Assembly: GCF_000001735.4 (NCBI RefSeq)
Contig: NC_003070.9
Location: 27,389,971-27,453,970, forward strand
From: Arabidopsis thaliana
Taxonomy: Eukaryota; Streptophyta; Magnoliopsida; Brassicales; Brassicaceae
Direction: 5' to 3'
DNA length: 64,000 bases
Positions within the stretch are counted from its first letter, which is position 1. Every line of letters begins with the position of its first letter. Positions 26,679-56,292 of this stretch are shown here, piece by piece. The position numbers were made by a program, and so were the translations under genes. The notes under the pieces were generated by a model, which worked only from the letters and a program-made list of their open reading frames with translations, did no database searches and had not been told where the DNA came from.

Positions 26679-29600
26679 TGCTTGGCCAACTTCCCAAATC
26701 AAGCGAATTCCACATGATTGTAGCTTTGCGGATGGAGACTTCAACTCCTCTGAGAATTGCAAATCGGATTTGATGCCTAACTTGTTGATTTGGTTGCTGA
26801 AGTTTTTTAACCCGCGGATGATAAGCAGGTGATCTGATTTAACAACTTCTTCCTCATCTTCAGTGCTAGGGTCAGTACTATGGAAATCTGGTTTAAGGTA
26901 TAAACAAAAGTACCTTTCATATCCCCAATCCCAGTCATAAGAAAATGGCGAGAATTGTATATCAAAGGGCCTCTCGCAAGCAATCACGACACATGCATCA
27001 AAACCCAGCAATTTCGGGGACGGCCAAATTTGGGGTAAGTCAATCGTTAGGGACTTTCCTTTATCTATATGATCAAAGTAACTGGGCACCTCGGTTCCAG
27101 GAAAGAAAGCGAATCCCAGTGACTCCTATTCGAGGACAACAACGAAAAGAAAAAAAGATGGAGAATGATCAAGTTCAGGTTGTTTGCAGTGGAGTAATGG
27201 AAGAATAAGCTGGAAACATACCTCTTCGTTTTCTCCCTCGTTGAGAAACTGAGCGATCAGATGTTCATCCCGTTTTAAACCGAAACAATGACTAAGATCA
27301 AGGTGTTTTACAGAATGGTTCAAAGGAAGGGAAACAGTTTCCAAGATTTCACAGCCATGGGCGTAGAGAGACTTGAGGCACAACGGAAGCCCTTCAATCG
27401 ATTTGAGTTTCTTGCACTTATTAAGGCAGAGAGTTCTCAAAGAGGAAAGCACTTCGATGCTGGATGGCAATTTCTCAAATTCATGGCTGCTAAGATCTAA
27501 ATATGATAGCTTGATAAAATGTCTAAGCTGATCTAAAATTGATCGAATGCTCTTGCAGCCATCAACCCAAAGCTCAAGCCATTGGAATCTGCCACAGTCT
27601 TGTTCAGCATAAGAAAGTTCCAACAATGATTGGAGGTTTATACAGCCAGAGAGTTTGATTGTCTCCAACTGAACCAGCGCTGGCAATGCTTTGAGTCTGC
27701 AACAGTTACGAAAGCTGGCATATTTCAACCTGGGAAGTTGATTCATGGTTTCTGGTAAAGTCTCAAAATCATTGCCACTCCAGTCCAGTTTCTCTAGGAA
27801 TTTCAAGCCGCACACGTCATCTGGGATCACTTTAATGTTTAGGTTGATTAGAATTAACTCTTTCACGCAGGGGAACATCGAAAGGCTAAAACAGAGGAAA
27901 CTTGCACCATCACTGCTGTACCTGAACCTGCTGATGTCTACTGAAGTAAATCCATGGAACTTGGATGTGGGTTGAGATTTTCCCTGTGCTTTCTTCACCG
28001 ATTCCTGACCATGAAACTCTGGCAAGAACTGAAGTGCCTGCCGTGTCCTTGTAGAAAATTCAAGAGCTTGTTGGTTATCAGGCGCTAGCTGATCCCTCTG
28101 CATCATCCATTCATGATCAAGAAACTCTGAAGTGGCCTTAACTTTCCGTCCTTTCCTCATAAGCGATCCAAAACCACATAATATTGTTTTTTTACGAGGT
28201 TCTTGTTGCTGCTCCCTCTTTGTCAATTCACCAGGTGCTTGTTGCTTCTCTTTCTTTGTCAATTTATCAGGTCCTTGTTGCTCAGTAGTAAAACTGAGAT
28301 GATCTACGTTGCCATCAAGCCAAAACATCTGAATATGTATGTTTCCTCCAATAGATAGATTTGCAATGGACCTCGTTTCCACTTCTTTACCCGAGAAATA
28401 CAAAGCAATTTGACGGCCGCTCCTATTCAATTCCCTTATAGTGATATAACTAGCAAGCTCCTCACAGTATGAGACATCAAGCGTCGTCAATCTAGTAAGG
28501 TAGCTGATGGACTCTGGAATTTTCTTCAGCCTCTTGCAGCCTTGAGTTATCAATTCCTCCAAATTAACGGCCATTGAAAGATCTGGAAGTTGTTCCAGAT
28601 TTTCAGAATCTGACAAGTCCAATCTTCTCAAGTTTGGCATCCCCTGAGCATATTCAACAAAGAATAGGAAAATTGCGAGAATGTTAAGTACCAGAAGATA
28701 CATTGTTATAAGCATAGATCTGTTAAGAGCTTTTACCACGGTTTCTTTCCAGAAGCTTGTGAGATTGCTGCGATGTAGAATGATTTCAACAAGATCTTGC
28801 GGCTGGAATCGGCAAGGGAAGGTTGTCAAGGGAAATGCGTCCCAATGTAGTAACCTAAGCCTTGATGAAAGTAGATTTGTATCGTCACCACTGAAAAGCA
28901 GCTTGGACTTAATATGGTTCGAGTGCTTGTAGATCTTGAGGAATTTGAGAGTATCGTGGTACGCTGTATACCCTCCCAGATGCAATGCATAAACCATGTC
29001 ACACATATGTAGTGCCATGCAATTGGTTGGTTCGCTTGTCTGTGGGATTAAATACGATAAAATTAGTTGGCCTACGAACAAGCTTAGTGCAGAAACAACC
29101 ATGAACAACAACGATGTTACAGATAGACACTGTAAGTGCTTACCGTGTTACGTTTCAGTAATTCATAAATTTCATAAGGATTCCACAAAACTCCTCGTCC
29201 ATGGCGCCTCTGCATGGATTCTTGATTAACAATTGCTCTTGCAGTTTGGTCTACCAAATTATGCATCTTTATATACCCACTGGCTGTTATTTCAATGAGA
29301 GACTTCTCAGCCAATATTTTTAATCCCAGACAACCCTGTAGTACACCATCATCGAGAAGGGTAGTGGCACGCCGGAGAGGTTCTCCATTAAAGAGACATG
29401 CTACATGAAGGAATACATTTTTATCTGTTTCCTCTAATCCATCGTAGCTAATTTTCAAGATCTCCATAACACTTTCATCAGGAGCTTCTATAAATCTACA
29501 TAATGCATCGTCCCACTCCTTTAAAGATGTCATTCTTCGGAAAAATAATCCATAAGCTTCAATAGCGACTGGAAGACCTTGAGCAAGCCAAGACGCTCGG

Positions 29601-30808
29601 ATTGACAGTTTTTCATAAAGTTCAGAAGGAGGAAGCGCTCCTTTGAAAGCCAACTGGTTAAATAACTGAAGAGCAGCATCATTATCCATGCACTTAACTT
29701 CATATACAGTTCTTACTCCGTATGTATTGAGCAAGCCCTTGTCTCGTGTTGTTATGATTATTCGACTGCCTGGCCCAAACCAGCTCGACTCTTGAGCAAA
29801 AGCATGCATTTGTCTCATGTCATCCACATTATCAAGGACAACAAAGACTTTACGACATCCAAACCTCGCCTTAATCTCCTGGGGTCCAAGTTTTACGCCC
29901 GAACCCTTCATCTTCTTCTTAGACAGACCAAGTGTAGTTGAAAGAAACTTTTCTGCTAAAGACGAGACACCACCCTTTCTATAAATCTTGGAAACGTTTT
30001 CAAGGAAACAACGAGCTGGAAATCCCTGTGAAAACTGGTCAAAGAGACACTTGGCAATGGTGGTTTTGCCGATGCCTCCCATTCCCCAGATTCCTATCAT
30101 ACGAACCTCATTCTCAGAGTCCATACTCAATAGAGGACTCAGGCGCTCCATGTGAGCGTTCATCCCTACGATGTCGCTGAAATCTACTGGCTGCATAATC
30201 AACAACTTTTTTGAAATGTCTTTAACAATCTCTTCAATCATCGACGCCTCGTCTTCACTAGAATATAGAACATGATAAGAATAATTATTATCAGTTCCAT
30301 CGATATTGTACACTAAAAACCATATGTTGGTGGTGAAAACTTACCAAGTTTCAAAATCCTTTCCTGCTAAACTGGCGATCTGGGTGAGAGCTTCTCTCCA
30401 AGTTGTGACCTTGTTAGGCATTTTAGAGTCTTGGTACTTGTCAAATGTGAAACTCCCAGTCTGATGTCTCACGTGAGAAGGATCAACTCCATAGAAAATG
30501 GGGACAACTTTAATCTTATTCTTTAGGTGAAGATCCATTACCATGCGGAGCTCGTCCAAGCACCAACTAGATGAAGCGTAGTTCTCCGATAGAATCACAA
30601 GAGCATATGTAGAGTTTTGAATGGCTCTGCTGATTTCTTCGGAGATGGAGTCGCCGAGCTCAAGCTTTTTATCATCTTTGAACGTAACAACTCCCTTATC
30701 GACAAGTTGTTTGTGCAAATGACTGACAATGTTCTTGCGGGTGTCTTCTCCCCGGAAACTCAAGAACACATCGTACTTCCAGATAGGAGATGAAGAAGAT
30801 GAAGCCAT
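26508..30808 (-). CDS. TIR-NBS-LRR immune receptor (AT1G72860)
   Basis: Paralogue of AT1G72840. Exons on the minus strand 30808-30345 (TIR), 30257-29144 (NB-ARC), 29039-28737, 28643-27222 (LRR) and 27125-26508 (C-JID and tail) stay in frame for about 1306 aa. [16 protein letters not shown] and catalytic WCLDEL. NB: P-loop [28 protein letters not shown], and MHN in place of MHD. The LRR exon has an unusual Gln/Lys/Glu-rich insert of about 80 residues between early repeats (QQAPGELTKREQQQEPR). The last about 55 codons repeat an LRR-exon end. If the annotation uses another 3' end, the protein would be shorter; that part is less sure. Confidence 0.88.
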
Positions 30809-31115
30809 TAGTCTCTCTCTTTATGGATCAACTATTTGGCCAAGAAGGAGGATGAAGAAATCATATCAAGTTCTTAGTACAAGATAATCATATTGTCACA
30901 AACTTGCACGTTGTCCGTATAATGATTTCAAATCCATGGTTCAATAAGACCCTCCCCCAAGCCACCCTGTTGTAACACAGTTGCACGTCGTCAATTCGTT
31001 GACTTTTGGAAGCCAAACTCTCTAGATATTACAAGGCGTCATTAACTACATCAATATCTCATTTCTTTGGTCAAAATTCAGGCATCAATCATCTATCTCT
31101 CCACTATCGATAATC
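30809..31115. promoter_or_regulatory. Shared divergent promoter, TNL/TN pair 2
   Basis: Only 307 bp lie between the ATGs of AT1G72860 (minus) and AT1G72870 (plus). A W-box TTGACTTTT lies at 30999-31007, near the middle. Same geometry as pair 1 but shorter. Confidence 0.7.
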
Positions 31116-33029
31116 ATGGCTTCTTCTTCCTCCTCATCAGAGCATAAAGTGTTCCTGAGTTTTAGAAGAGAGGACACCGGTAGAACTTTTGTCAGCCATC
31201 TATACCGTTCGTTGGATCAAAAAGAAATTCGAACTTACAAATTTGAAAACCAGCAGGCGGGAGACGGAAAGAGGATATCTTCTGAGGTCAAGCAGGCTAT
31301 CAACGAGTCTAGGATTGCTGTCGTTGTGATATCGGAGAACTACGTCTCTTCCGTCTTGTGCTTGGACGTACTCGCGAAGATAATTGAGCGTTTGCCTCTC
31401 ATCAAAATCGAAACAGTCTTCTACGAAGTGGATCCGGGGGATTTGACAAGACCAACTGGTAAATTCGCCGACGACTTCAGGAGGCATGAAGCGAGAGAAA
31501 ATCGGAGAACCGTGAATCGTTGGAGGGATGCACTGGACCAATTGGTTAGCATCACCAACAGTAATTTTTGTTCGCGCAATTGGTAATCACCGATTACTGT
31601 AGTGGTTTTTTTATTGTAGTGGTTTCTTTTATTGTTTTACTTTTAAAAAATTTGCTAACTCATAGGGGGTGATTGGCTAGTTCAAAGCTTTAAAAAGAGT
31701 TTAAAGTCTTTCCAATTTTTTTTTTGCTAATTAGACTTTTTTTGCTTTATTTATTTTGAAAGTTTTAAAAACCTTTTTTTTTAAAAGTCCCATAAACTAA
31801 ACTTTTTCAAACAAAATAATTCTCAAAAGTTTTTTTTATATTCTTTCCAACATAATTAAAACTCTCTACAAGTTACATATATTTTTTTAAGAAATCATAG
31901 TAAAATAGTCTCTTAACCTTTCTCCAAAAGTCCTATATATTTTATGTTTTTTGACAGGGAGGATGATTCCAAGATGATCGATGATCTAATCATCAGACTA
32001 ATCAATATTTATTTTTCTAAATACTACACACCGGACGTAGATATAATCGCAGAAACGACAGTTGGCCTAGACGCGAGCGTTCTGGGATTGATGACAGATA
32101 TCGATATGAAGTACAAACTCAACAGTCTGTCTGGGTCTGTAGAATCTGGATTTGGACTTGAGAGATATGCACTTGAAGCCACATCTGTTATGGACGATAT
32201 GTCAAATGAATCGCCTTCTCCCACATCTGACGACTCCAACGGTCTTGTTGGGATGTATCGTCATAAGAAAGCGGTCTATGGATTGCTTGATTTGGAATCT
32301 AAGAACCAGGTCCGTACAATTGGCATTTGGGGTTTCCAAGGCGTCGGGAAAACGACACTTGCTGAATGTGTTTTCGACGACATCTCAAGCCACTTTCAAC
32401 ACTACTGCTTCCTAACCAATGCCAATAAAATCTATCAGAACCGCATCTCACCAAGTTTACTAAAACATCTTACAAGGAGAAGGAGTTCTGAAGACATATT
32501 TGATGCCATCAAACCAAGTCTTGTAAACCGAAAAGTCCTGTTTGTTGTTGATGGTGTTGATGCTACTTACAATGAACAATTTAACGATGCCATGAAGGTT
32601 ACCCGTTGGCTCGGTCCTGGCAGTAGAATTATCATGACATCTAGATTCAAGTCTTCGCTTAAGTTCGGTGGGGCAAAATACGAGATGGAGTGTCTGAGAT
32701 ATGAGGAAGCTCTACAACTCTTCTCTCTATACGCTTTCAAGAAAACTTACCCTCTTATTGGTTTTGAACTATTCTCCATTCGTGCTGTCCACTTTGCTGG
32801 ACGTCTTCCTCTGTCCCTGAAAGTACTCGGTTCATTTCTATATGATAAAGACGAAGAGAGTTGGAAAAGAACATTGCACAAGCTAGAAGCATCACAAGAT
32901 AACGATCGTCGTTATGTCTCTAACTACATCGGGGCAGGTGAATACCTTCCAAGACGTCAAATAGAATTGGAACAATATGTAAGTCCAGATGAAGAAGAAT
33001 ATTCACCTTCATATATCATGTCACTTTGA
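31116..33029 (+). CDS. TIR-NBS protein with degenerate TIR (AT1G72870, TN5)
   Basis: Exons 31116-31582 and 31958-33029 give 512 aa; the 375-nt intron is very T-rich. TIR starts HKVFLSFRREDTG; the catalytic motif WCLxEL is LCLDVL, so the NADase Glu is Val. Between TIR and NB there is a linker of about 100 residues instead of the usual 35 or so. It contains TVGLDASVLGLMTDID, which may be a decayed extra copy of the GLVGM region. P-loop GFQGVGKTT is good, and kinase-2 reads LFVVDGVD. The protein ends after RLPLSLKVLG. Divergent partner of AT1G72860, parallel to AT1G72850/AT1G72840. Confidence 0.9.
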
Positions 33030-43562: not shown

Positions 43563-44003
43563 AGCAATGAATTTTGCCACGGAATGTTTTAGCTCTCAAA
43601 GTAGAAGATCTGGTTATGAGAAAGTGTTGGAATCAGTTTAATAAGTTAGATCCCTTGAGTCATATGCATTAAGTTAACTAAACTTAATAAGTTGTGTGGC
43701 TTTCAAATAAGGTTGTTTTGTCTATTTTTGGAGTGGGTTCTCTTGGGGTGTATAAAAATGTCACTCTTCATTGGATTAAATAATATACAAATTTTTTTTG
43801 TTATAATCAAATTTGTGTATTTTAGTTATAACCTAAATGTTGTATGTCTCTTTCTAGACTTAAGAACTAAAGTCTATGTTTTCCTTAAAAACAAAGTTTG
43901 TATAATTTCTTGGGATTCCCATGACCATTTGTTCTTTGAATACCCGAATTCTCAAAGGCAGTTTGGTTGTCCCTCGCATCACATGTTTTCCATAGCCCTC
44001 TTC
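43563..44003. other. AT1G72900 3' side with block repeated at 51.4 kb
   Basis: 3' UTR and spacer. From about 43880 to 43968 the sequence (AAAAACAAAGTTTGTATAAT ... AAGGCAGTTTGGTTGTC) recurs at about 51422-51507 downstream of the AT1G72930 relic, evidence of shared duplication. Confidence 0.6.
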
Positions 44004-44215
44004 TGCACTTGCTAAAGAAGTTAATTGGTTTGGTCTTGGAAGCAGAATCTTCATAACAACACAAGACATGCAATTGCTTATTTCATCAATAGTGGGGAGC
44101 GTCTACGAAGTTGAGCTTTTGAGATGTTACAAAGTTCGACAGCTATTTAGGTTAGATGCCTTCAAACAAAGAGAGGATCATGTTGGTTTTGAGCAGTCTA
44201 CAGAGTTTTTAAGAA
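44004..44215 (+). pseudogene. Fragment of a TN-gene NB exon
   Basis: About 210 nt closely match exon 2 of AT1G72890 from its TGCACTTGCTGAAGAATTTA region onward: the translation [20 protein letters not shown] mirrors [20 protein letters not shown]. The earlier NB part and the TIR exon are missing here. So an eighth TN gene once existed between AT1G72900 and AT1G72910, or a piece was copied in. Confidence 0.8.
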
Positions 44216-44529
44216 TGTTAGAGCACCCTAAATGGGGGTTTCTAAACAAGTTTCTTAACAAAGAATAAAAAATTTATATGATTTAAATATTACATAAGTC
44301 TCTTAAATTTGATGAAACTTAGGCAAATTGTCTCTTAGTTAAGAGATAATTGGTCTTGGTTTCACCAAATTTAAGAGACCTATAATTAAAAATATTATTT
44401 ATCTATACTTACACTTTAATTTTGTTTAAGAGACTTAGGCTTAGAGACTACCATTGAGGATGCTCTTAAACAACCATTTTTAACATCTGGATGTACTAGT
44501 TGTTTGTAATACTGTTCTTTCCTTATAAG

Positions 44530-45190
44530 AAATAAAGAATACACCATTTGAAACCTGAAAGATGGCCAAGCTTGAGGCCTATTAACCACTCCAACTAGAA
44601 CCACGTCCTCCACAACACAGACAACTCTGCGGCTAACCATACTCTCCACCGCCCAGACAACGCAAAGAAAATGGGCTTCCAATTTAGTTTTAATGTTTGT
44701 GAATGCCGGATGACTATGCAGCAAAACATGTCCTGATTCCTCTCTTAGAACTCAGTAGACAACTGCCACAAAGTTTCTTTTAGACCAGGAGAAGCCAATA
44801 TTACACTGAGCCCTTTGACTTGTACCAGAAAACACATAAGTGACATAACCAGTAGGGCTAGTCCCTGTTTCAAGAGAATTTCTTTCAGACTACACTTCCT
44901 ACGCAGCAAACCAATCATCCACATCCTCTCTCACTTTCTTTATGGTTTCCAAAGCAGAGAATGTTTTTCCTTCAAAAAACATGAGGTTTCTATTTTTCCA
45001 AATTCTCCAAATAATCCATGGGAAGGGGCATGATAATGTGACATGCCTCAAATTTGTCTAGAGAAAATAGACTCTCCATCAAGACCACAAGTTGGCATCT
45101 GCAGTCCATTTTCACACCCCTATGCGTCAGAAGATCCATAACATGTACAACTCCACTTAGAATCTTCCAAAGAAAAACATTAATTTTTGG
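44530..45190 (-). mobile_element. Decayed LINE 3' end (RT tail and RNase H-like part)
   Basis: On the minus strand about 45030-44900 reads PWIIWRIWKNRNLMFF and ETIKKVREDVDDWFAA, typical of the end of plant L1-type (Ta11-like) reverse transcriptase proteins. Downstream, 44724-44530 reads LEAHFLCVVWAVESMVS and NRPQAWPSFRFQMV, as in the RNase H-like domain that follows. Frames are broken between the parts. Left border near 44530; right border uncertain. Confidence 0.65.
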
Positions 45191-45204
45191 TTTTAGTCTT
45201 GAGC

Positions 45205-45616
45205 TTCCAAACTTAATGTTTTAACTCGTTGGTTGAAAGTTGCACATTTGCTTAATCATCCTTATCAATTAGCCTTTCTCGTCCGTCAATTGACTTAGTT
45301 CTAACCATTCGTTTGATCGATAATCAAACAAACATTTGAATCTTCTTCAACCAATTAAATTAGACTACGAGTAACTAAATGCCAATACACGAGAAAAGTA
45401 AGAGGAGAATTTGTGTTCGTTAATATGTTATCCATACTCATTATCTTACTTTGGCGGCCCATCTATTCTCTTCCCTCTTTCTGAGTAGTTTAGTGAAACA
45501 GAAGCTGACAAGAAAAAATAGAAAATGCCAGGAAACACACAGTTAGCAGTAGGAAGACTCTTTGTTCTAGGATGACTCTTATAGGTCAACTCCTGTAGTG
45601 GTAGTGCCTATAAATA
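45205..45616 (+). promoter_or_regulatory. Conserved TN promoter block, AT1G72910
   Basis: Starts with GAGCTTCCAAACTTAATG, which is also found at the crossover junction near 48815. W-box TTGACTTAG near 45292, GGCGGCCCATCTATTCTC near 45452, CTGAGTAGTTTAG near 45480 and TATAAATA at 45609-45616, about 48 nt before the ATG. Nearly the same sequence precedes AT1G72930 at 49090-49458. Confidence 0.78.
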
Positions 45617-45663
45617 TCCTTGAGTTCTTTATTTCTATCACTCATTGAGAATCAAAAATCAAA

Positions 45664-46917
45664 ATGTCTTCTCATACTGCAACTAAGTACGATGTTTTCC
45701 TAAGTTTCAGAGGGCATGACACTCGCCAGAACTTCATCAGTTTTCTCTACAAAGAACTGGTTCGAAGGAGCATTCGAACCTTCAAAGACGACAAAGAGCT
45801 GGAGAATGGCCAGAGGATTTCGTCGGAGCTCAAACGCACCATCGAGGTGTCAAGATTCGCCGTCGTTGTTGTCTCAGAGACCTATGCTGCGTCTTCTTGG
45901 TGTCTCGATGAGCTCGTAACGATCATGGATTTCGAAAAAAAGGGTTCCATCACCGTGATGCCCATCTTCTACGGCGTGGAACCGAATCATGTGAGGTGGC
46001 AGACCGGAGTACTCGCTGAACAGTTTAAGAAACATGGGAGTAGAGAAGATCATGAGAAAGTGCTTAAATGGAGGCAAGCATTGACCAATTTTGCGCAACT
46101 CTCCGGCGATTGTTCAGGGTGAAATTTCGTAACTTGATTTTTTTTTTGAGTTGAATCAAAAAGATTGAATTTTTTATTGTTTGATTTGAATCGATGCTAA
46201 AGTTTGGATTTTTTTTTTTGTCTCTGTAGTGATGATGACTCGAAGCTGGTGGACAAAATTGCTAACGAGATATCAAACAAGAAGACGATTTATGCAACAA
46301 TAAACAATGGGAAGAATCTAGTTGGGATTGATACACACATGAAGGAACTAAACCGATTAATGCATATGAATTGCAACAAAGTTACTGTAAGAATGGTTGG
46401 GATTTGGGCAAGAGGAGGCGATGGTAGATCAGCTCTAGCTAAATATGTTTATCAGACATCTTGTCAACAGTTTGACAGCCATTGTTTTCTTGGAAACGTG
46501 AAAACGATTTCTCAGGGTCGCCACTCAGCGCATCTACACGACGAGTTTCTGAGAAATATTAAAAGAGAAGACTCTAACAAACAATGTCTTAAGAATCAAA
46601 AGGTTCTGCTTGTGGCAGACAACGTTACTAAGGTTAAACAGTTAGAAGCTCTTGCAGGGGATTTCAGCAGTTTTGGTCCTGGGAGTGTTGTTATTATCAC
46701 TACAGACAACAAGGGGTTGTTGAATTCTTATGGTATAACAGATGTCTACGAAGTTGAGCATTTGAAGTTTTGTGGAATCTTACGATCATTGGGCTTTAAA
46801 AAGAGAGCTGCTGCGTTCCAGCGGGCTTTGTGTAGAGCAAAGAGTTTTGCCACGGAATGTTTTTGTTGTCAAAGTAGTAGTATATCTGGTTATGGGAAAG
46901 TGACAGATTTAGTTTAA
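45664..46917 (+). CDS. TIR-NBS protein, truncated NB (AT1G72910, TN8)
   Basis: Exons 45664-46118 and 46230-46917 give 380 aa. [19 protein letters not shown], catalytic WCLDEL present. NB P-loop ARGGDGRSA (Lys to Arg, first Gly to Ala). Kinase-2 is [10 protein letters not shown], with both Asp after the first changed, so the site looks non-functional. [10 protein letters not shown] follows, and the end is a Cys-containing tail ([11 protein letters not shown]). This is the intact sister of AT1G72930 and shows what that gene looked like before it was broken up. Confidence 0.92.
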
Positions 46918-47729
46918 TTAAGTTGAATCCCTTATTAGTCATATGCATTAAGTTAAGTAAACTTAATAAGTTGTGTGGCTTAGAAATAATATTGTTTTGT
47001 CTATTTTTGGAGTGGGTTGCTCTTGGGGTGTAGAAAAATGTCACTCTTCATTGGATTAAGTAATATACATTTTTTTGTTCCTTAGTTTTTAAGACATTTT
47101 TTTACATCTGGATGTGCCAGTTGTTTGTAATATACTGTTCTTTCCTTATAGAAATAAATATTACACAATTTTTTAAAAAAGATTTATGTATTTGGGAGGG
47201 TTTTTTGATGTTTGGACATGCCCAATAAAATTAAAAATTAATACAGGAGACACAAAGTCGCTAACTTTCCAAAGTTGGAATCTACATATGTCTAAAACAG
47301 AGAAGAAAAGCTTTTAAACTTTTTACATGACGATCCTCCAATAATAGTAATACACTACTACAGTTCAAAGCCACTGACAAGTTTCTCGCTTTTTTCCCTT
47401 AATGAGAAACTCTTTTAACCTGCTTTTCTGATTTATGCTCTTTGGGTACGTGGAAGATTTCAATCACAGACTAACGTAATTAAATCATTTATTGGAAACT
47501 GTGAGTCAAGCTGAATAAACTTGATGCAAACGAATAGATATGAAAGAAATTGGGTTGATCAACAAAAAAACAAGCCGACAAAAACTGAATCTCATGATAT
47601 GTTTTCGTCCGTCAGTTTTAACCGTTCGTTTGATCGGATAATCAAAACCAGTAAATGCCAATAATACACACCAGAAAAGTAAGATGATAATTTTTGTTCG
47701 TTAGTAGTATTTTATTATTATCATGCTCA
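46918..47729. other. Spacer with relic of the RHD3-like gene leader
   Basis: 3' UTR of AT1G72910, then from about 47268 a stretch (CCAAAGTTGGAATCTACATA, AAACAGAGAAGAAAAGCTTT, later GATTTATGCTCTTTGGGTAC) that lines up with copies at 51622, 53951 and 56150. The 56150 copy is the leader of the RHD3-like gene. This copy is the most decayed. Confidence 0.65.
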
Positions 47730-47914
47730 TCATTTTCTTACTTTGGCGGCCCATCTTTTCTCTTCCCCTCTTTCTGAGTAGTTTAGTAAAACAGAACCTG
47801 ACAGAAAAAAATAGAAAATGCCAGGAAACACACACTTAGCAGGAAGACTATGGGAGTCTCTAACCAATGCACATGCTTTATTTAGTTCAACTACTCTCTA
47901 GTGGTCTATAAATA
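47730..47914 (+). promoter_or_regulatory. Conserved TN promoter block and TATA box, AT1G72920
   Basis: TTTGGCGGCCCATCTTTTCT, CTGAGTAGTTTAG, CTGACAGAAAA, ATGCCAGGAAACACACAC in the same order as in the other TN promoters. TATAAATA at 47907-47914, 62 nt before the ATG. Confidence 0.75.
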
Positions 47915-47976
47915 TCGTTGAGTTCTTTATTTCTATTACTCATCATAGTTCTCAATAGAGAGAATCAAAAATCAAA

Positions 47977-48898
47977 ATGTCTTCTCCTACTGCGACTAAG
48001 TACGACGTCTTTCTGAGTTTCAGAGGACTCGACACTCGTCGCAACTTCATCAGTTTTCTCTACAAAGAACTCGTTCGAAGAAAAATTCGAACTTTCAAAG
48101 ACGACAAGGAGCTCGAGAATGGCCGGAGGATTTCTCCGGAGCTCAAACGCGCCATCGAGGAGTCGAAATTCGCCGTCGTTGTGGTCTCTGTGAACTACGC
48201 TGCGTCTCCTTGGTGTCTCGATGAGCTTGTGAAGATTATGGATTTCGAAAACAAGGGTTCCATCACCGTGATGCCTATCTTCTACGGCGTGGATCCTTGT
48301 CATTTGAGGAGGCAGATCGGAGATGTCGCTGAACAGTTTAAGAAGCACGAGGCTAGAGAAGAAGATCATGAGAAAGTAGCTTCGTGGAGACGAGCATTGA
48401 CCAGTTTAGCGAGTATCTCCGGCGAATGTTCATTGAAATGGTGAAATTTCGTAGCGTTGGTTAGAAAGATTGGATTTTTATTTGATATGTCTCGTTACTA
48501 AAGTTTCGATTTTTATTTTGTTTTCTCTCTGTAGGGAAGATGAAGCGAATCTGGTGGACGAAATTGCTGACAAGATATCAAAAAATCTGATGACTGTTAC
48601 AACAATAAGCAATGGGAGGGACCTAGTTGGGATTGATACACACATGAAGGCTCTTAACAAAAAATTGGATTTGAATTCCAACAAAAGTTTGAGAGTGGTT
48701 GGGATTTGGGCAAGAGGATACAATGGTAGATCAGCTTTAGCTAAATATGTTTATCAAGACATCTGTCATTGGTTGAAGGTTGGTTGGTTGAAGGTTTATC
48801 AAGATATCAAGACAGCTTCCAAACTTTATGTTTTAACTCGTTGGTTGAAGGTTGCACATTTGCTTCATAGATCACATCACTCTTTTAAAACTGAGTAG
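47977..48898 (+). CDS. TIR-NBS fragment with chimeric tail (AT1G72920, TN9)
   Basis: Exons 47977-48440 and 48535-48898 give 275 aa. [19 protein letters not shown] with catalytic WCLDEL. Exon 2 matches AT1G72940 through the altered P-loop ARGYNGRSA to YQDICH, then diverges at about 48770. The last 42 residues or so ([14 protein letters not shown] onward) come from a crossover junction and from what is noncoding DNA next to AT1G72910. No kinase-2 or later NB motifs, so in effect a TIR with a short extension. Protein-level existence of the tail is not shown by sequence. Confidence 0.9.
48768..48870. other. Tandem-duplication (unequal crossover) junction
   Basis: Left of about 48770 the DNA equals AT1G72940 exon 2 (53091 region). 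From about 48815 (AGCTTCCAAACTT, then ACTCGTTGGTTGAAGGTTGC) it equals the sequence at 45203-45255 upstream of AT1G72910. A short filler with GGTTGAAGGTT repeats lies between. This is what a junction between two tandem copies looks like. Confidence 0.82.
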
Positions 48899-49089
48899 CC
48901 AGCCAATCAATAACCCGAATTTCACTGAGAAATCCCCACATTTGTTATGTTTCCATACTACAAAATCATCTATTGACACCACTAGTTAGCTGTGATCTTA
49001 TAAAGATGAGTAAGCCAACCAAACCAATAACCCAAATTGGAAAATGTGAGTCAAGCCGAATAAACTTGATGTAATAACCTATTCGTTCT

Positions 49090-49458
49090 AACTTGAAATT
49101 GTTATTAAAATCATCCTTATCAATTAGCCTTTCTCGTCCGTCAATTGACTTAGTTCTAACCATTCGTTTGATCGATAATCAAACAAACAGTTGAATCTTC
49201 TTCAACCAATTAAATTAGACTACGAGTAACTAAATGCCAATACACGAGAAAACTAGACTAAGAGGAGAATTTGTGTTCGTTAATATGTTATCCATACTCA
49301 TTATCTTATTTTGGCGGCCCATCTATTCTCTTCCCTCTTTCTGAGTAGTTTAGTGAAACAGAAGCTGACAAGAAAAAATAGAAAATGCCAGGAAACACAC
49401 AGTTAGCAGTAGGAAGACTCTTATAGGTCAACTTCTGTAGTGGTAGTGCCTATAAATA
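49090..49458 (+). promoter_or_regulatory. Conserved TN promoter block, AT1G72930
   Basis: Almost identical to 45255-45616 before AT1G72910, including W-box TTGACTTAG near 49138, CTGAGTAGTTTAG near 49341 and TATAAATA at 49451-49458. A few small indels separate the copies, so the duplication is young. Confidence 0.8.
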
Positions 49459-49505
49459 TCCTTGAGTTTTTTATTTCTATCACTCATTGAGAATCAAAAA
49501 TCAAA

Positions 49506-50177
49506 ATGTCTTCTCATACTGCAACTAAGTATGATGTTTTCCTAAGTTTCAGAGGGCATGACACTCGCCACAACTTCATCAGTTTTCTCTACAAAGAACT
49601 GGTTCGAAGGAGCATTCGAACCTTCAAAGACGACAAAGAGCTGGAGAATGGCCAGAGGTTTTCGCCGGAGCTCAAAAGCCCCATCGAGGTGTCAAGATTC
49701 GCCGTCGTTGTTGTCTCAGAGAACTATGCTGCGTCTTCTTGGTGTCTCGATGAGCTCGTAACGATCATGGATTTCGAAAAAAAGGGTTCCATCACCGTGA
49801 TGCCCATCTTCTACGGCGTGGAACCGAATCATGTGAGGTGGCAGACCGGAGTACTCGCTGAACAGTTTAAGAAACATGCGAGTAGAGAAGATCCTGAGAA
49901 AGTTCTTAAATGGAGGCAAGCATTGACCAATTTTGCGCAACTCTCCGGCGATTGTTCAGGGTGAAATTTCGTAACTTGGTGATAAAGATTGATTTTTTTT
50001 AGGGTTTGTTAAGATTTGAGTTGAATCAAAAAGATTGAATTTTTTTATTGTTTGATTTGAATCGATGCTAAAGTTTGGATTTTTTTGTTTTGTCTCTGTA
50101 GTGATGATGACTCGAAGCTGGTGGACAAAATTGCTAACGAGATATCAAACAAGAAGACGATTTATGCAACAATATGA
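49506..50177 (+). CDS. TIR: TIR-only protein (AT1G72930, TIR/TN10)
   Basis: Exons 49506-49960 and 50102-50177 give 176 aa. [21 protein letters not shown]-loop region [15 protein letters not shown], catalytic Glu in WCLDEL, and [13 protein letters not shown]. The TIR exon differs from AT1G72910 at only about ten residues. Exon 2 codes just 25 residues ([20 protein letters not shown]) and its frame closes where foreign DNA begins. So it is a TN gene shortened to TIR-only. From memory this is the AtTIR protein whose domain structure was solved. Plant TIR-only proteins cleave NAD+ as signalling enzymes (family knowledge). Confidence 0.93.
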
Positions 50178-50509
50178 TGAGTCCAGACGAGAAGAAGAAG
50201 AAGAAAGGAGAAGGCCCATAAGGACTCGCATGCCCAATCCAAAGTATTCCCAACACTAAGTCATTTTACTTAGTCTCTGTTTTCGATTTAGTTACAATAA
50301 GCAAGGAGTCTTCCACGATTACAGTTTCCATCTTTTCCAAGTTTGTAGAAGTTGTTACTCCACGTTTGTTTCCATGTTGTTTCTAGTTGTAAGGAGGTGT
50401 ACTCCAAGTATTTATATCAATGAAAAACAAAACAAAAGGTAGTCTTAACTAACAATCGTTTATCAATTCTAAGAACTAGAATTCTCTTTGGTTTTGAAGA
50501 GGGACCATT
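50175..50509 (+). mobile_element. Solo-LTR-like insertion (probably Copia) in AT1G72930 exon 2
   Basis: About 335 bp absent from the sister AT1G72910, where the target reads GCAACAATAAACAATGGG. It starts TGATGAGTCC, has a polypurine stretch near its start and a promoter/poly(A)-like ATTTATATCAATGAAAAAC in its second half. ACAATA flanks both sides (50169-50174, 50510-50515). No internal retroelement part is present, so a solo LTR fits best; the family is inferred from general look only. It is younger than the 72910/72930 duplication. Confidence 0.6.
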
Positions 50510-51237
50510 ACAATAAACAATGGGAAGAATCTAGTTGGGATTGATACACACATGAAGGAACTAATCAGCTCTAGCTAAATATGTTTATCAGACATCTTGT
50601 CAACAGTTTGACAGCCATTGTTTTCTTGGAAACGTGAAAACGATTTCTCTACCAAGTGTCGTTAGCTCAATTGGTAAAGACCTTAAGCGAAAGCTTCGCT
50701 TAGGGTCGCCGGTTCGAGTGACGCTTGAGACGAAACTAATATTACATGATGTGGTTTCGGGTCTGGGTGGATTACGGGTTTCGTTCAGAACCTCCTGGAT
50801 TTCAACAAAAAAAAAAAAAAAAAAAAACGATTTCTCAGGGTCGCCACTCATCTACACGACGAGTTTTGAGAAATATTAAAAGAGAAGACTCTAACAAACA
50901 ATGTCTTAAGAATCAAAAGGTTCTGCTTGTGGCAGACGACGTTACTAAGGTTAAACAGTTAGAAGCTCTTGCAGATGATTTCAGCAGTTTTGGTCCTGGG
51001 AGTGTTGTTATCATCACTACAGACAACAAGGGGTTGTTGAATTCTTATGGTATAAAAGAAGTCTACGAAGTTGAGAATTTGAAGTTTTGTGGAATCTTAC
51101 GATCATTGGGCTTTAAAAAGAGAGCTGCTGCGTTCCAGCGGGCTTTGTGTAGAGCAAATAGTTTTGCCACGGAATGTTTTTGTTGTCAAAGTAGTAGTAT
51201 ATCTGGTTATGGGAAAGTGACAGATTCAGTTAATTAA
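50510..51237 (+). pseudogene. Stranded NB remainder of the AT1G72930 parent gene
   Basis: Continues exon 2 of the TN ancestor after the insertion. Compared with AT1G72910 it lacks 77 nt (equivalent to 46351-46427), which removes the P-loop, and it carries a SINE at 50650-50823. The rest ([46 protein letters not shown]) is still very close to AT1G72910. No ATG-led TIR frame reaches it, so it is probably not translated. Confidence 0.88.
50650..50823 (+). mobile_element. Young tRNA-derived SINE
   Basis: About 174 bp ending in a run of about 20 A. A tRNA-like head: A box GTTAGCTCAATTGGTAA (50661), B box GGTTCGAGT (50711). A perfect 13-bp target duplication AAAACGATTTCTC lies on both sides (50637-50649, 50824-50836). 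The sister AT1G72910 has the empty site (AAAACGATTTCTCAGGG near 46502). Intact tail and exact duplication mean recent insertion. Class: AtSB/RathE-type SINE. Confidence 0.93.
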
Positions 51238-52054
51238 GTTTAAATTCCTTAGTCACATGCACTAAGTTAGCTAAACTTAATAAGATGTGTGGCTAGGGGT
51301 GTAAAACAAATATCACTCTTCATTAAATTAAGTAATATACACTTTTTTTTCCTTATCAAATCTGTGTTTGAGTTATAACCTAAATGTTTGTTGTGTGTCT
51401 CTTTCAAGTCTATATTTTCTTAAAAACAAAGTTTGTATAATTTCTTGGGATTCCCATGACCATTTGTTCTTTGAATACCCGAATTCTCAAAGGCAGTTTG
51501 GTTGTCAAATAAAGATTACACAATTTATAAAAAAAGATTTGTGTATTTGGGAGGGTTTTTGATGTTTGGACATGCCCAATAAAATTAAAAATTAATACAG
51601 GAGACACAAAGTCGCAAACTTTCCAAAGTTGGAATCTACATATGTCTAAAACAGAGAAGAAAAGCTTTTAAACTTTTTACATGATGATCCTCCAATAATA
51701 GTAATAGTGTAATGGTACTATACTACTACAGTTCAAAGCCACTGATTTATGCTTTTTGGGTACGTGGAAGATTTCAATCACAGACAAACGTAATTAAATC
51801 ATTTATTGGAAAATGTGAGTCAAGCTGAATAAACTTGATGCACACGAATAGATATGAAAGAAATTGGGTTGATCAACAAAAAAACAAGCCGACAAAAACT
51901 GAATCTTATGATCTTTTTTCGTCCGTCAGTTTCAACCATTCGTTTGATCGGATAATCAAAACCAGCAAATGCCAATAATACACACCAGAAAAGGTAAGAT
52001 GATAATTTTTGTTCGTTAGTAGTATTTTATTATTATCATGCTCATCATTTTCTT
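51238..52054. other. Spacer with second relic of the RHD3-like leader
   Basis: Downstream block matching 46918-47730 after AT1G72910. The RHD3-leader relic starts about 51622 (CCAAAGTTGGAATCTACATA). The spacer is slightly shorter than in the first copy. No gene. Confidence 0.65.
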
Positions 52055-52240
52055 ACTTTGGCGGCCCATCTTTTCTCTTCCCCTCTTTCTGAGTAGTTTA
52101 GCAAAACAGAAGCTGACAAGAAAAAAATAGAACATGCCTGGAAATACACAATTACACCACTTTAGCAGGAAGACTATGGGAGTCTCTAATCAATGCACAT
52201 GCTTTATTCAGTTCAACTACTCTCTAGTGGTCTATAAATA
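52055..52240 (+). promoter_or_regulatory. Conserved TN promoter block and TATA box, AT1G72940
   Basis: Near copy of the AT1G72920 promoter: GGCGGCCCATCTTTTCTCTT, CTGAGTAGTTTAG, AGAAGCTGACAAG. TATAAATA at 52233-52240, 67 nt before the ATG. Confidence 0.77.
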
Positions 52241-52307
52241 TCCTTGAGTCCTTTATTTCTATTACTCATCATACTTAAGTTCTCAATAGAGAGAATCAAA
52301 AATCAAA

Positions 52308-53517
52308 ATGACTTCTCCTACTGCGACTAAGTATGATGTCTTTCTGAGTTTCAGAGGAGTCGACACTCGTCGCAACTTCATCAGTTTTCTCTACAAAGAA
52401 TTCGTTCGAAGGAAAATTCGAACTTTCAAAGACGACAAGGAGCTTGAGAATGGCCGGAGGATTTCTCCGGAGCTCAAACGCGCCATCGAGGAGTCGAAAT
52501 TCGCCGTCGTTGTTGTCTCTGTAAACTACGCTGCGTCTCCTTGGTGTCTCGATGAGCTTGTGAAGATTATGGATTTCGAAAACAAGGGTTCCATCACCGT
52601 GATGCCTATCTTCTACGGTGTGGATCCGTGTCATTTGAGGAGGCAGATCGGAGATGTCGCTGAACAGTTTAAGAAGCACGAGGCTAGAGAAGAAGATCAT
52701 GAGAAAGTTGCTTCGTGGAGACGAGCATTGACCAGTTTGGCTAGTATCTCCGGAGATTGTTCATCCAAATGGTGAAATTTCGTAGCTTTGGTTATAAAGA
52801 TTGGATTTTTATTTGATTTGAATCGTTACTAAAGTTTCGTTTTTTATTTTGTTTTCTCTCTGTAGTGAAGATGAAGCGAAGCTGGTGGACGAAATTGCTG
52901 ACAAGATATCAAAAAATCTGATGACTGTTACAACAATAAGCAATGGGAAGAACCTAGTTGGGATTGATACACACATGAAGGCTCTTAACAAAAAACTGGA
53001 TTTGAATTCCAACAAAAGTTTGAGAGTGGTTGGGATTTGGGCAAGAGGATACAATGGTAGATCAGCTTTAGCTAAATATGTTTATCAAGACATCTGTCAC
53101 CACTTTGACAGCCATTGTTTCTTGGGAAGCGTGAAAAGGATTTCTCAGGGTCGTCACTTATCGCATCTACACGAAGAGTTTCTGATAAGGATTCAAGGAA
53201 GTAAACATAATCTCAAGGACCAAAAGGTTTTGCTTGTGGCTGATGATGTTTATAAGCTTGAACAGTTAGATGCTCTTGCTGAGGATTTCAACGGGTTTGG
53301 TCCGGGAAGTGTTGTTATCATCACTACACAAGACAAGCATCTGTTTGTTTCTGCTGGTATAAAGCTTGTCTACGAAGTTGAGCTTTTGAAATTCCAGAAA
53401 GTTTGTGAACTCTTCCGACAATTCGCCTTTAAAAAGAGAGACATTTCTGCTGCGGTCAAGTTGGTTTACTATAGGGCAACAAATTGGTTAGGTTGTCTAA
53501 GTGGTAGATCTGGTTAG
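52308..53517 (+). CDS. TIR-NBS protein, truncated NB (AT1G72940, TN11)
   Basis: Exons 52308-52771 and 52866-53517 give 371 aa. Full-length sister of AT1G72920, with TIR exons differing at only a handful of residues. [19 protein letters not shown], catalytic WCLDEL. NB P-loop ARGYNGRSA (Lys to Arg), kinase-2 [20 protein letters not shown], then [14 protein letters not shown] and an early end at LGCLSGRSG. No GLPL or LRR. Confidence 0.93.
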
Positions 53518-54614
53518 GGGGGAAGTGTTAAGAATCAATTTTGAAGCTAAATCTCTTTTCATAGGCAAATAGACATTAAGTTAAGGGAATGTGGCTTTGA
53601 TTAAGTTTGAAGCCTCTCCAAATAACCTTCCGGTTCTCGTTTGGGATACCATCCTATCCTTTTATTACTTTGTTTTCCTTTCCACTCGTGTAAAAGCGAG
53701 TTCCTTGGCAAAGAGTTCCGTTTGCTTAATTGTGATTTTGTATCTTTGGTTTAATTAATCTTAAAGGAAATTGTGAAAAAAAGAAGTTAATTTGGTTTTG
53801 AAATATGAATGTTTTTGTTTTTTTTTTGGAGTATTTTGTTTGTAATTTTGAATAGACTAACTAATACAATATACAATTTTTCTTTTAAAGTTTTGGGTTT
53901 GATGTTTCCATATGCACAACAAACTTATACCTAACTAAAGTTCATAGCTCAAAGTTGGAATCTAAAATGACTAACAACAAGATAAAACAGAGAAAGGGAA
54001 GCTTTTGAAGAGGAAGATCCCAAAAACGTGAAAGCTGTCTTCTTCTGCTTTCTCTCACTGACACTGTAGAATTTTTCTGTCTGAGAAAGACAAAAGAATG
54101 GGTACAATTTCTCTATCTGTCTGCCAGTATCCTTCGTCCGATTTATGCTTTTTGATACCTTGTTTGCTTCTTTCTCAGGCTTTTACGTCTCATGGACCCG
54201 TTTTCATGACTTTTTTTATGGGAACAACAAAGTGGGCTAAAGCCTATAGATGGTAACTGAAATTAAACAAAGAAAAACAAAACAATCAGAAAAGGCCCAG
54301 CCCAAATAGGGAGAAGGAGGCCCAAACAGAAAAGAAAAACGGAGCACAAAATGGTTTTACCGGCGGCAAGAAAACCGGCAAAGTCTCTCGGCCGGAAGCC
54401 TAATCTAAAATATTGCACTGCATTGTGTCATTTCATTGAGTTGACTTTGATATTTTCTTGGTTACAAGCTGACAAAAATAACAAATAAGAAAATGCGAGG
54501 AAATTTAACCTGTCTCTGAAGCATGAAGAAGGAGTCTCTGTAAAATCCTCCCACACGGTTACACGTCCACGGCTATTAATCCCACTTATTCCATTTCTCT
54601 TTAGAATCAATGAA
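53518..54614. other. Spacer between AT1G72940 and AT1G72950
   Basis: 3' UTR and spacer, including the RHD3-leader relic (separate entry). The promoter of AT1G72950 (54420-54560) keeps only part of the TN block: AAGCTGACAAAAATAAC and AAATGCGAGGAAATT. No TATAAATA copy here. Confidence 0.5.
53949..54170. repeat. Copy of the RHD3-like gene leader, best preserved relic
   Basis: Matches 56150-56350 block by block: CAAAGTTGGAATCTAAAATG, GAGAAAGGGAAGCTTTTGAA, TTTTCTGTCTGAGAAAGACA and AGAATGGGTACAATTTCTCT, including the ATG (54098) and the GT that follows. Roughly 80% identical by eye. It has no RHD3-like coding exons behind it. Confidence 0.85.
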
Positions 54615-54660
54615 ATGTCAGATTCTTCAAACACCCTCCCAAAGTTTGATGTTTTTCTGA
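54610..54660 (+). promoter_or_regulatory. Overlapping upstream ATG of AT1G72950
   Basis: ATGAAATGTC: an ATG at 54610 lies 5 nt before the real start at 54615 in another frame and runs 16 codons to TGA at 54658. If used, it would lower translation of the TIR protein. The other TN genes do not show this pattern at the start codon. Confidence 0.6.
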
Positions 54661-55844
54661 GCTTCAGAGGACTCGACACTCGCCGCAGCTTCATCAGTTT
54701 CCTCTACAAAGAACTGATTCGAAGAAACATTCGAACCTTTAAAGACGATAAGGAGTTGAAGAATGGCCGGAGGATTACGCCGGAGCTAATACGCGCCATT
54801 GAAGGGTCGAGATTCGCAGTCGTTGTGGTCTCCGTGAATTACGCTGCGTCTCGTTGGTGTCTCGAAGAGCTCGTGAAGATTATGGATTTCGAAAACATGG
54901 GCTCGCTCAAGGTCATGCCTATCTTCTACGGCGTGGATCCGTGTCATGTGAGGAGACAGATCGGAGAAGTCGCTGAACAGTTTAAGAAGCATGAGGGTAG
55001 AGAAGATCATGAGAAAGTGCTTTCATGGAGGCAAGCGTTGACTAATTTGGCGAGTATCTCCGGCGATTGTTCATGGAAATGGTAAAAATTTCCTAACTTT
55101 GATAATAAAGGTCGAATTTTTATTGTTAATTTGAGTGAATGGATTGTAAAGTTTCGATTTTTACTTTGCAGGGAAGATGACTCGAAGATGGTCGAAGAAA
55201 TTACTGACAGGATATCAAAAGAGCTGATGATTGATACAACAAGAAGCAATGGGAGTGACCTTGAAGGGATTGATGCACACATGAAAGCTCTTCACCGTTT
55301 ATTGAATTTAAATTCTAAGAAAAGTGTGAGAGTGATTGGGATTTGGGCAAGAGGAGGCAATGGTAGATCAGCTTTAGCTAAATTTGTTTATCAGAACATC
55401 TGTCAACACTTCGAAAGCCATTGTTTCTTGGAAAGTGTGAAAAGGATTTCTCAGGATCGCCACCTGTCTCACTTACACGAAGAGTTTATGATACGGATTC
55501 AAGGAGAATGCTTGAGTAAATTAAGGCTCAAGAACCAAAAGGTTCTGCTCGTGGCTGATGATGTGAATAAGCTTGAACAGTTAGATGCTCTTGCAGAGGA
55601 CTTTAACTGCTTTGGTCCTGGGAGTATAGTTATTATCACTACACAAGACAGGCAGCTGCTTATCTCTGCTGGCATAAAACTTGTTTATGAAGTAGAGCTT
55701 CTCAGATTCCAGAAAGTTCGTGGACTCTTCAGACAATTAGCCTTCAAAGAGAAAGACATTTCTGCTGCGTTCGAGGTGTCTTTGTATAGGGCAACGAATG
55801 TTGCCATGGAATGGTTAGGTTGTATATGTGGTAGATCAGGTTAG
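54615..55844 (+). CDS. TIR-NBS protein, truncated NB (AT1G72950, TN12)
   Basis: Exons 54615-55081 and 55172-55844 give 379 aa. Most divergent member of the right half of the array. [19 protein letters not shown], with WCLEEL catalytic Glu. NB P-loop ARGGNGRSA (Lys to Arg), kinase-2 [34 protein letters not shown]. It stops after LGCICGRSG, like its neighbours. Last TN gene before the RHD3-like gene. Confidence 0.93.
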
Positions 55845-56292
55845 GGGAAAGTGTTAGTGTTAGAATCACTTTATAAAGCTGATCCCTTTTTTCATGTACA
55901 TTAAGTTAAGAATGACTAAACTTAGTAAGATGTGATTGTGGCTTAGAAGTAGGAATGTTTTGTCTATTTTTGGAGTGTGTTGCTGGTGTATAGAAGAATA
56001 TTATTCTTTGATTGGATTAAATGATATACAAATTCTATTTCAAGTTTGTGTTTTGATATTTCCATGTGCCCAACAAATTTGTAGAGGAGATCTAAATTTC
56101 CTAACTTGCATTCCTTGCTTTTGCCTTTTCCAAGGAAAAAGAATAATAACTCAAAGTTGGAACCTAAAATGACTGACATGGAAAAACAGAGAAAGGGAAG
56201 CTTTTGAAGAGTGAGATCCTAAAAGCGTGAAAGCTCTGATCTTCTTTTTCTCACTTTCACTTTGAGAATTTTCTGTCTGAGAAAGACAAAGA
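55845..56292 (+). promoter_or_regulatory. AT1G72950 3' side and RHD3-like gene leader
   Basis: 3' UTR of AT1G72950, then from 56150 the leader of the RHD3-like gene. This is the source form of the leader relics at 47268, 51622 and 53949. Only about 450 bp separate the two coding regions. Confidence 0.55.

Follow-up and report, generated by a model that had tools for sequence, protein, structure and literature searches.

Evidence that a long-terminal-repeat-like insertion made the TIR-only gene AT1G72930 of Arabidopsis thaliana

The AT1G72930 locus and its product

We analyzed a stretch of 64,000 nucleotides of the Arabidopsis thaliana genome (assembly GCF_000001735.4, contig NC_003070.9, positions 27,389,971 to 27,453,970 of the forward strand), called the window hereafter, in which genes for a TIR domain followed by a nucleotide-binding (NB) region, the TN genes, lie in one row, all on the same strand. 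One gene of this row, AT1G72930 (TN10), codes for a TIR domain alone, and it is well supported that an insertion resembling a long terminal repeat (LTR) made it so. Genes are referred to by their last three digits where this is clear; the names of 890, 900, 910, 920, 930, 940 and 950 follow gene order, after an earlier reader of this DNA and the gene list of PMC8069298, and AT1G72930 only was named by sequence match. Published work is cited from the portions of the papers available to us.

The AT1G72930 product, which ends with the stop at 50175-50177, is 176 amino acids long and identical over 176/176 residues to chain A of PDB entry 3jrn, deposited as 'AT1G72930 protein'; this is AtTIR, whose structure has been published (PMC5143477). 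The Pfam TIR domain is complete, spanning residues 8-172 of 176 (E 1.7e-62), and at E values up to 0.1 the only Pfam matches are TIR and TIR_2, with none to NB-ARC or LRR. By domain content, AT1G72930 is a TIR-only (TX) protein. Its candidate catalytic Glu is E83, which aligns with Roq1 E86, a residue that we take to be catalytic. Coordinates of the locus are collected in Table 1.

Table 1. Features of AT1G72930 and of its empty-site paralogue (window positions)
Feature	Position	Strand	Evidence or remark
AT1G72930 (TN10) exon 1, TIR domain	49506..49960	+	ATG at 49506
AT1G72930 intron, GT...AG	49961..50101	+	junction 49960/50102 is that of a published junction-spanning primer
AT1G72930 start of exon 2, kept: 73 nt, then the TGA stop with which the insert opens	50102..50177	+	second TGA at 50178
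Target-site duplication ACAATA, left copy	50169..50174	.	exact match to right copy
Insert, 335 bp, best read as a solo LTR, sense	50175..50509	+	gap-free site in 5/6 paralogues, motifs, stops
Target-site duplication ACAATA, right copy	50510..50515	.	exact match to left copy
Stranded NB exon remnant	50510..51237	+	colinear with AT1G72910 46297-46917; frame lost through deletions of 77, 5 and 1 nt and the SINE-like insert
77-nt deletion junction, 1-nt overlap	50564..50565	.	corresponds to window positions 46352-46428 in AT1G72910
SINE-like insert	50650..50823	+	A-box/B-box-like start, GGTTCGA at 50711; A-run; 13-bp duplication
Substitution-free tract vs AT1G72910: 475 unique aligned sites, inserts left out	49905..50937	.	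local alignment and shuffles
AT1G72910 (TN8), paralogue carrying the empty site	45664..46917	+	empty-site probe and local alignments

A 335-bp insert closes the frame of exon 2

Exon 2 of AT1G72930 is interrupted by an insert whose first six bases are TGA TGA, both triplets in frame, and which holds stops in all three frames. To represent the empty site, the two flanks of the insert were joined in a script, and this probe was compared with the six paralogues. It matches AT1G72910 at 65/65 positions and aligns ungapped to 940 (83% identity), 920 (80%), 900 (80%) and 950 (75%); 890 gave short matches only, so the uninterrupted site is counted in five of the six. The insertion into AT1G72930, its target-site duplication and the empty sites of the paralogues are real. 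The original prediction, made from the DNA letters alone, had taken AT1G72910 for the ancestral layout, had an LTR-like insert of about 335 bp with ACAATA flanks closing the frame of exon 2, and gave the outcome as a 176-residue TIR-only protein with its catalytic Glu; all of this agrees with what we found, the Glu being a candidate. The opposite polarity, with a TIR-only ancestor and a continuous exon gained later by the paralogues, is contradicted by the uninterrupted site common to five of six paralogues, and the ACAATA on either side of the insert in 930 also speaks against it; nothing was found in its favor, and its probability is negligible.

Our preferred interpretation of the insert is a solo LTR in sense orientation, since its ends and its target-site duplication fit such an element. 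If the duplication is taken as 5 bp (CAATA), the insert reads TGATGAGTCC...GGGACCATTA, and its two ends, TGATGAGTCC and, read inwards, TAATGGTCCC, are near-matching terminal repeats whose likeness was equaled in 0.98% of 20,000 336-nt segments drawn at random from the window. The duplication falls within the 4-6 bp size range of solo LTRs. Moreover, the insert carries TATTTATA at 50409 and AATGAA at 50419, that is, a TATA-like motif and then AATGAA in the order of LTRs. Its 5' end is TG, and its 3' end is TTA (with a 5-bp duplication) or ATT (with a 6-bp duplication) and not the canonical CA. This 3' end, the lack of an identified family and the single copy in the window, where no second copy was found, would suit another short element, such as a relic of a DNA transposon or a TRIM; the TG start, the duplication of 5-6 bp, the terminal repeats and the motif order all speak against such an element, which we regard as unlikely. 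Exact scans with one 21-mer (viral contigs) and one 20-mer (prokaryote contigs) from the insert gave 0 matches, as expected.

The stranded NB exon behind the stop

The remainder of the old exon 2 lies behind the stop as a remnant that is colinear with AT1G72910 and broken in frame. A 77-nt deletion took the P-loop region, which already lacked its Lys, and two more small deletions, of 5 nt and 1 nt, are seen relative to AT1G72910. In addition, the remnant holds an insert resembling a short interspersed nuclear element (SINE). It is flanked by a 13-bp duplication, AAAACGATTTCTC, at 50637-50649 and 50824-50836, a sequence present singly at 46501 in AT1G72910, and its 21-base A-run (50807-50827) runs into the right copy. 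This insert thus has the A-tail and the long target-site duplication of a SINE. A tRNA was found in it neither by ARAGORN (50500-50900) nor by Rfam (gathering thresholds over 44000-56000, lax thresholds over 50560-50860), and the lax Rfam search over 50560-50860 returned only two small nucleolar RNA matches at chance level; the A- and B-box-like motifs, read by eye, would suggest a tRNA origin.

The three deletions and the SINE-like insert would break a TN protein, and behind the stop they leave the protein unaffected. The view that the NB exon, once stranded, had then lost 77 nt with the P-loop and taken in a SINE holds in so far as both events occurred, the P-loop that went being one already without Lys and the SINE lacking a tRNA recognized by ARAGORN or Rfam; the word "then" has to be dropped, as the sequence is silent on the order of the LTR, the 77-nt deletion and the SINE-like insert.

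State of the NB region before truncation

The Walker A Lys (G....GK[ST]) is present in none of the six TN paralogues (890, 900, 910, 920, 940 and 950), and it is kept in two other genes of the window, at 29117-30340 (minus strand) and 31917-33029. NB-ARC scores range from 29 to 57 bits in five of the six TN exons, with no score for 920, and reach 72 and 83 bits in the two Lys-bearing genes. Judged by these motifs, the starting gene is not a canonical TN switch, and because all six TN paralogues lack the P-loop Lys, no canonical NB switch would have been lost in AT1G72930. Low NB-ARC scores and the absence of Lys therefore suggest a step from TIR plus a degenerate NB to TIR alone. TNs without the P-loop Lys can still matter, given that plants lacking TN8 or TN11 are described as more susceptible to Pto DC3000 (PMC8069298), which counts against calling the NB useless.

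A zero-substitution tract and the age of the truncation

Comparing 910 with 930, we counted 41 substitutions in 1761 unique colinear sites, and the longest clean run, 475 sites, was equaled in 0 of 10,000 shuffles. This tract spans all structural changes of 930. By gene part, with the 19 duplicated target-site bases counted twice, substitutions number 10/455 in exon 1, 0/111 in the intron, 0/73 in exon 2 before the insert, 0/140 between the two inserts, 9/414 after the SINE-like insert and 19/340 in the 3' flank. The global alignment also shows an intron indel of about 28 nt between the two genes, a fourth large event.

The simplest reading of the tract, from the distribution of substitutions, is a gene-conversion or exchange tract that covered the site before the insertions, since later copying across the insert would have removed or spread it. 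With 0 substitutions in 475 sites, homogenization of the 910/930 pair would be recent, which makes a young truncation probable. Mutation proceeds at about 7e-9 per site and year; if no more than 3 changes are allowed for in the 475 sites, this rate would put the insertion at less than roughly 0.45 million years. As no substitution lies within the tract, a date after the insertion cannot be drawn from nonsynonymous and synonymous changes (dN/dS).

The segments 910/920 (45664-48898) and 930/940 (49506-53517) resemble a duplication of a two-gene block. The 920/940 pair, intergenic DNA included, differs at 68 of 1576 sites, and in exon 1 the proportion of synonymous differences (pS) is 0.124 for 920/940 vs 0.020 for 910/930, a contrast between block duplicates that is consistent with later homogenization of one pair.

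Transcripts and the 3' end

A primer pair for quantitative reverse-transcription PCR of AT1G72930 has been published, for use on oligo(dT) cDNA (PMC4549238). By our mapping, its forward primer crosses the 49960/50102 junction, and the reverse one falls within the insert, at 50210-50231. Total abundance was measured in Ler and paps1-1 seedlings (PMC4549238), and the primer pair supports, without proving, an mRNA that enters the insert and the presence of the insert in Ler. The transcript 3' end is likely to lie inside the insert; if transcripts reached the old stop, the 3' untranslated region (UTR) would measure at least 1060 nt (50177 to 51237). TN10 transcripts are described as very high in untreated plants (PMC8069298).

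Some transcripts might have the insert spliced out and so restore a TN protein, for which the retroelement Evelknievel in CMT1 is a precedent (PMC6238269). This would require an intact frame downstream, but the 77-nt deletion has a length not divisible by three and is followed by the SINE-like insert and two small deletions; taking out the insert and nothing else leaves the NB frame broken. Moreover, the crystallized protein and the published amplicon (PMC4549238) are both of the insert-terminated form, and we hold such splicing to be very improbable.

Function and selection

The published account of TN10 describes a protein lacking most of the nucleotide-binding site (NBS), P-loop included (PMC8069298). 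In Nicotiana tabacum TN10 caused no cell death, and TN11 and TN12 did (PMC8069298). TN10 binds the TIRs of the TNL receptors TNL40 and TNL60 in split-luciferase and coimmunoprecipitation assays and was alone in binding both among the TNs tested, which did not include TN6; the TIR domains of other TNs, with TN8 in the construct list, lacked TNL40/TNL60 binding (PMC8069298). The authors proposed that TN10 may transmit signals or act like RBA1 (PMC8069298).

Because sibling TIR domains do not bind, loss of the NB part is no explanation for why TN10 does. Exon 1 of TN8 and TN10 differs by eight residues, and our own inference is that the binding data (PMC8069298) point to TIR point changes as a better explanation than NB loss. 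In exon 1, 930 alone has Phe at a position that is Ile in all eight other TIRs of the window, and it has Pro where seven of these eight have Ala and 910 has Thr. The original prediction had pointed to TIR-only proteins as known signaling enzymes; with no cell death by TN10 and with binding absent from sibling TIRs (PMC8069298), the birth of a functional signaling enzyme through the truncation finds no support here.

Exon 1 of the 910/930 pair carries 8 nonsynonymous and 2 synonymous substitutions (pN 0.0224, pS 0.0204; Fisher test against site numbers, p 1.0), the stranded exon carries 7 and 2, and exon 1 of 920/940 carries 5.5 and 12.5. The difference between the two pairs in exon 1 gives a Fisher p of 0.016 or 0.046, depending on the rounding of 5.5:12.5. 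In these counts, which are small and mix both lineages, nothing indicates that purifying selection has acted on the 910/930 TIR pair since its duplication.

AT1G72930 could be an expressed but truncated relic, its TIR-only protein having no selected function and the locus heading toward a pseudogene, a reading to which we give a minor though appreciable chance. The 8:2 ratio in 910/930 against 5.5:12.5 in 920/940, the 930-specific Phe and Pro and the lack of cell death in tobacco (PMC8069298) would fit such a relic. However, the protein folds (3jrn), very high transcripts and binding to TNL40/60 TIRs are reported (PMC8069298), the exon 1 substitutions may predate the insertion and so say little on later selection, and the 910/930 ratio alone is not distinguishable from neutral.

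A model for the origin of AT1G72930

Taken as a whole, we consider it quite probable that a solo LTR closed the frame of a TN gene, that the insertion is young and that the product acts by TIR-TIR contact. The gene that received the solo LTR, within its exon 2, would be a TN gene and a close duplicate of AT1G72910, and the element, in sense orientation, would supply the mRNA 3' end besides the stop. With that 3' end, the transcript would avoid a 3' UTR of about 1 kb, a possible trigger of nonsense-mediated decay. Behind the stop, the NB exon, already without its P-loop Lys, would have lost its coding role and then decayed, through the 77-nt deletion, the SINE-like insert and the two small deletions. 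The insertion would be young, since neither flank has diverged from AT1G72910 after a homogenizing exchange, and the folded TIR product probably acts by contact with the TIRs of neighboring TNL receptors and not as an autoactive enzyme. A bolder version is rather doubtful: in it a very recent and possibly polymorphic LTR, which arrived after the last exchange with AT1G72910, gave both stop and poly(A) site and converted a TN without P-loop into a stable, highly expressed naked TIR that serves as a dedicated TIR partner of the neighboring TNL40 and TNL60 receptors.

Several points weigh against this model. The insert has its noncanonical 3' end, and AATAAA is absent from its 335 bp. Three large events, or four with the intron indel, and no point change in 475 sites make an odd combination, and patchy, repeated conversion between the inserts may also yield a clean tract, weakening the young age. 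No poly(A) site within the insert was found in the portions of the literature available, and those of PMC2175511 that were searched for AT1G72930 give no 3' end. Array data cannot split 910 from 930, because the two share a probe set (PMC2175511, PMC5259951). Finally, a legend in PMC4549238 notes some unreliable detections and one gene of the 15, not named, for which Ler gave no reads; the read-less gene could be AT1G72930.

Relation to known systems

TIR-only proteins are parts of immune signaling, and the event that made one of them is still visible here, with a near-identical empty-site paralogue about 4 kb away. RBA1, which we take to be locus AT1G47370, and other TIR-only proteins have the same architecture as AT1G72930; in contrast to RBA1, TN10 gave no cell death in the tobacco assay (PMC8069298). 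For AT1G72930 itself (TN10, AtTIR, 3JRN), the 176-residue chain, the structure and the loss of the NBS are in print (PMC5143477, PMC8069298). The published account of TN10 gives the missing NBS but, in the text available, not a transposon as its cause, the SINE-like insert or the clean tract; the string 'transpos' occurs 0 times in that text of PMC8069298. Nor is an LTR in AT1G72930 named in the available portions of the literature examined on the gene (PMC8069298, PMC4549238, PMC5259951, PMC11598430, PMC2175511), and we claim, weakly, that an LTR origin of the truncation is not in print.

A transposable-element route to a predicted TIR-only product has already been reported, for an RPP4 transcript: in the RPP4-AtCOPIA4 isoform, the element ends a transcript whose predicted product is the TIR of a TNL and nothing more (PMC8116057). 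That isoform comes from alternative splicing into an element lying downstream, whereas in AT1G72930 the insertion sits in the gene's own coding exon. COPIA-R7, in intron 1 of RPP7, is likewise a COPIA element in a nucleotide-binding leucine-rich repeat gene that supplies poly(A) sites, but it is intronic, lies upstream of the RPP7 open reading frame (ORF) and leaves protein length unchanged (PMC8116057). The AT1G729xx genes are not mentioned in the main text of PMC8116057, as far as available. Evelknievel, in exon 13 of CMT1, is an exonic retroelement that truncates a coding exon; it is reported to be sometimes spliced out (PMC6238269), whereas in AT1G72930 the downstream frame is further broken.

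What is new here is the zero-substitution tract around three structural events. The AtTIR protein that was crystallized stops where the insertion begins. Should accessions differ in whether they carry the insertion, natural alleles would allow one to measure what NB loss does to a TIR gene. That the locus displays a direct path by which TIR-only proteins arise, as had also been proposed, does not follow from a single case.

Other observations in the cluster

AT1G72920 stays 97% identical to AT1G72940 as far as 48768/53099, where the match is lost, with TTGGTTGAAGGTT repeats (48768-48898), making a second, separate NB loss beside AT1G72930. The ORF at 43996-44268, 3' of AT1G72900, resembles an NB-ARC fragment by eye (GLGSRIFITTQDMQLL) and is perhaps a relic of another TN. 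The TIR exon at 31026-31586 reads LCLDVL vs WCL(D/E)EL of the other TN/TNL exons and seems to lack the catalytic Glu.
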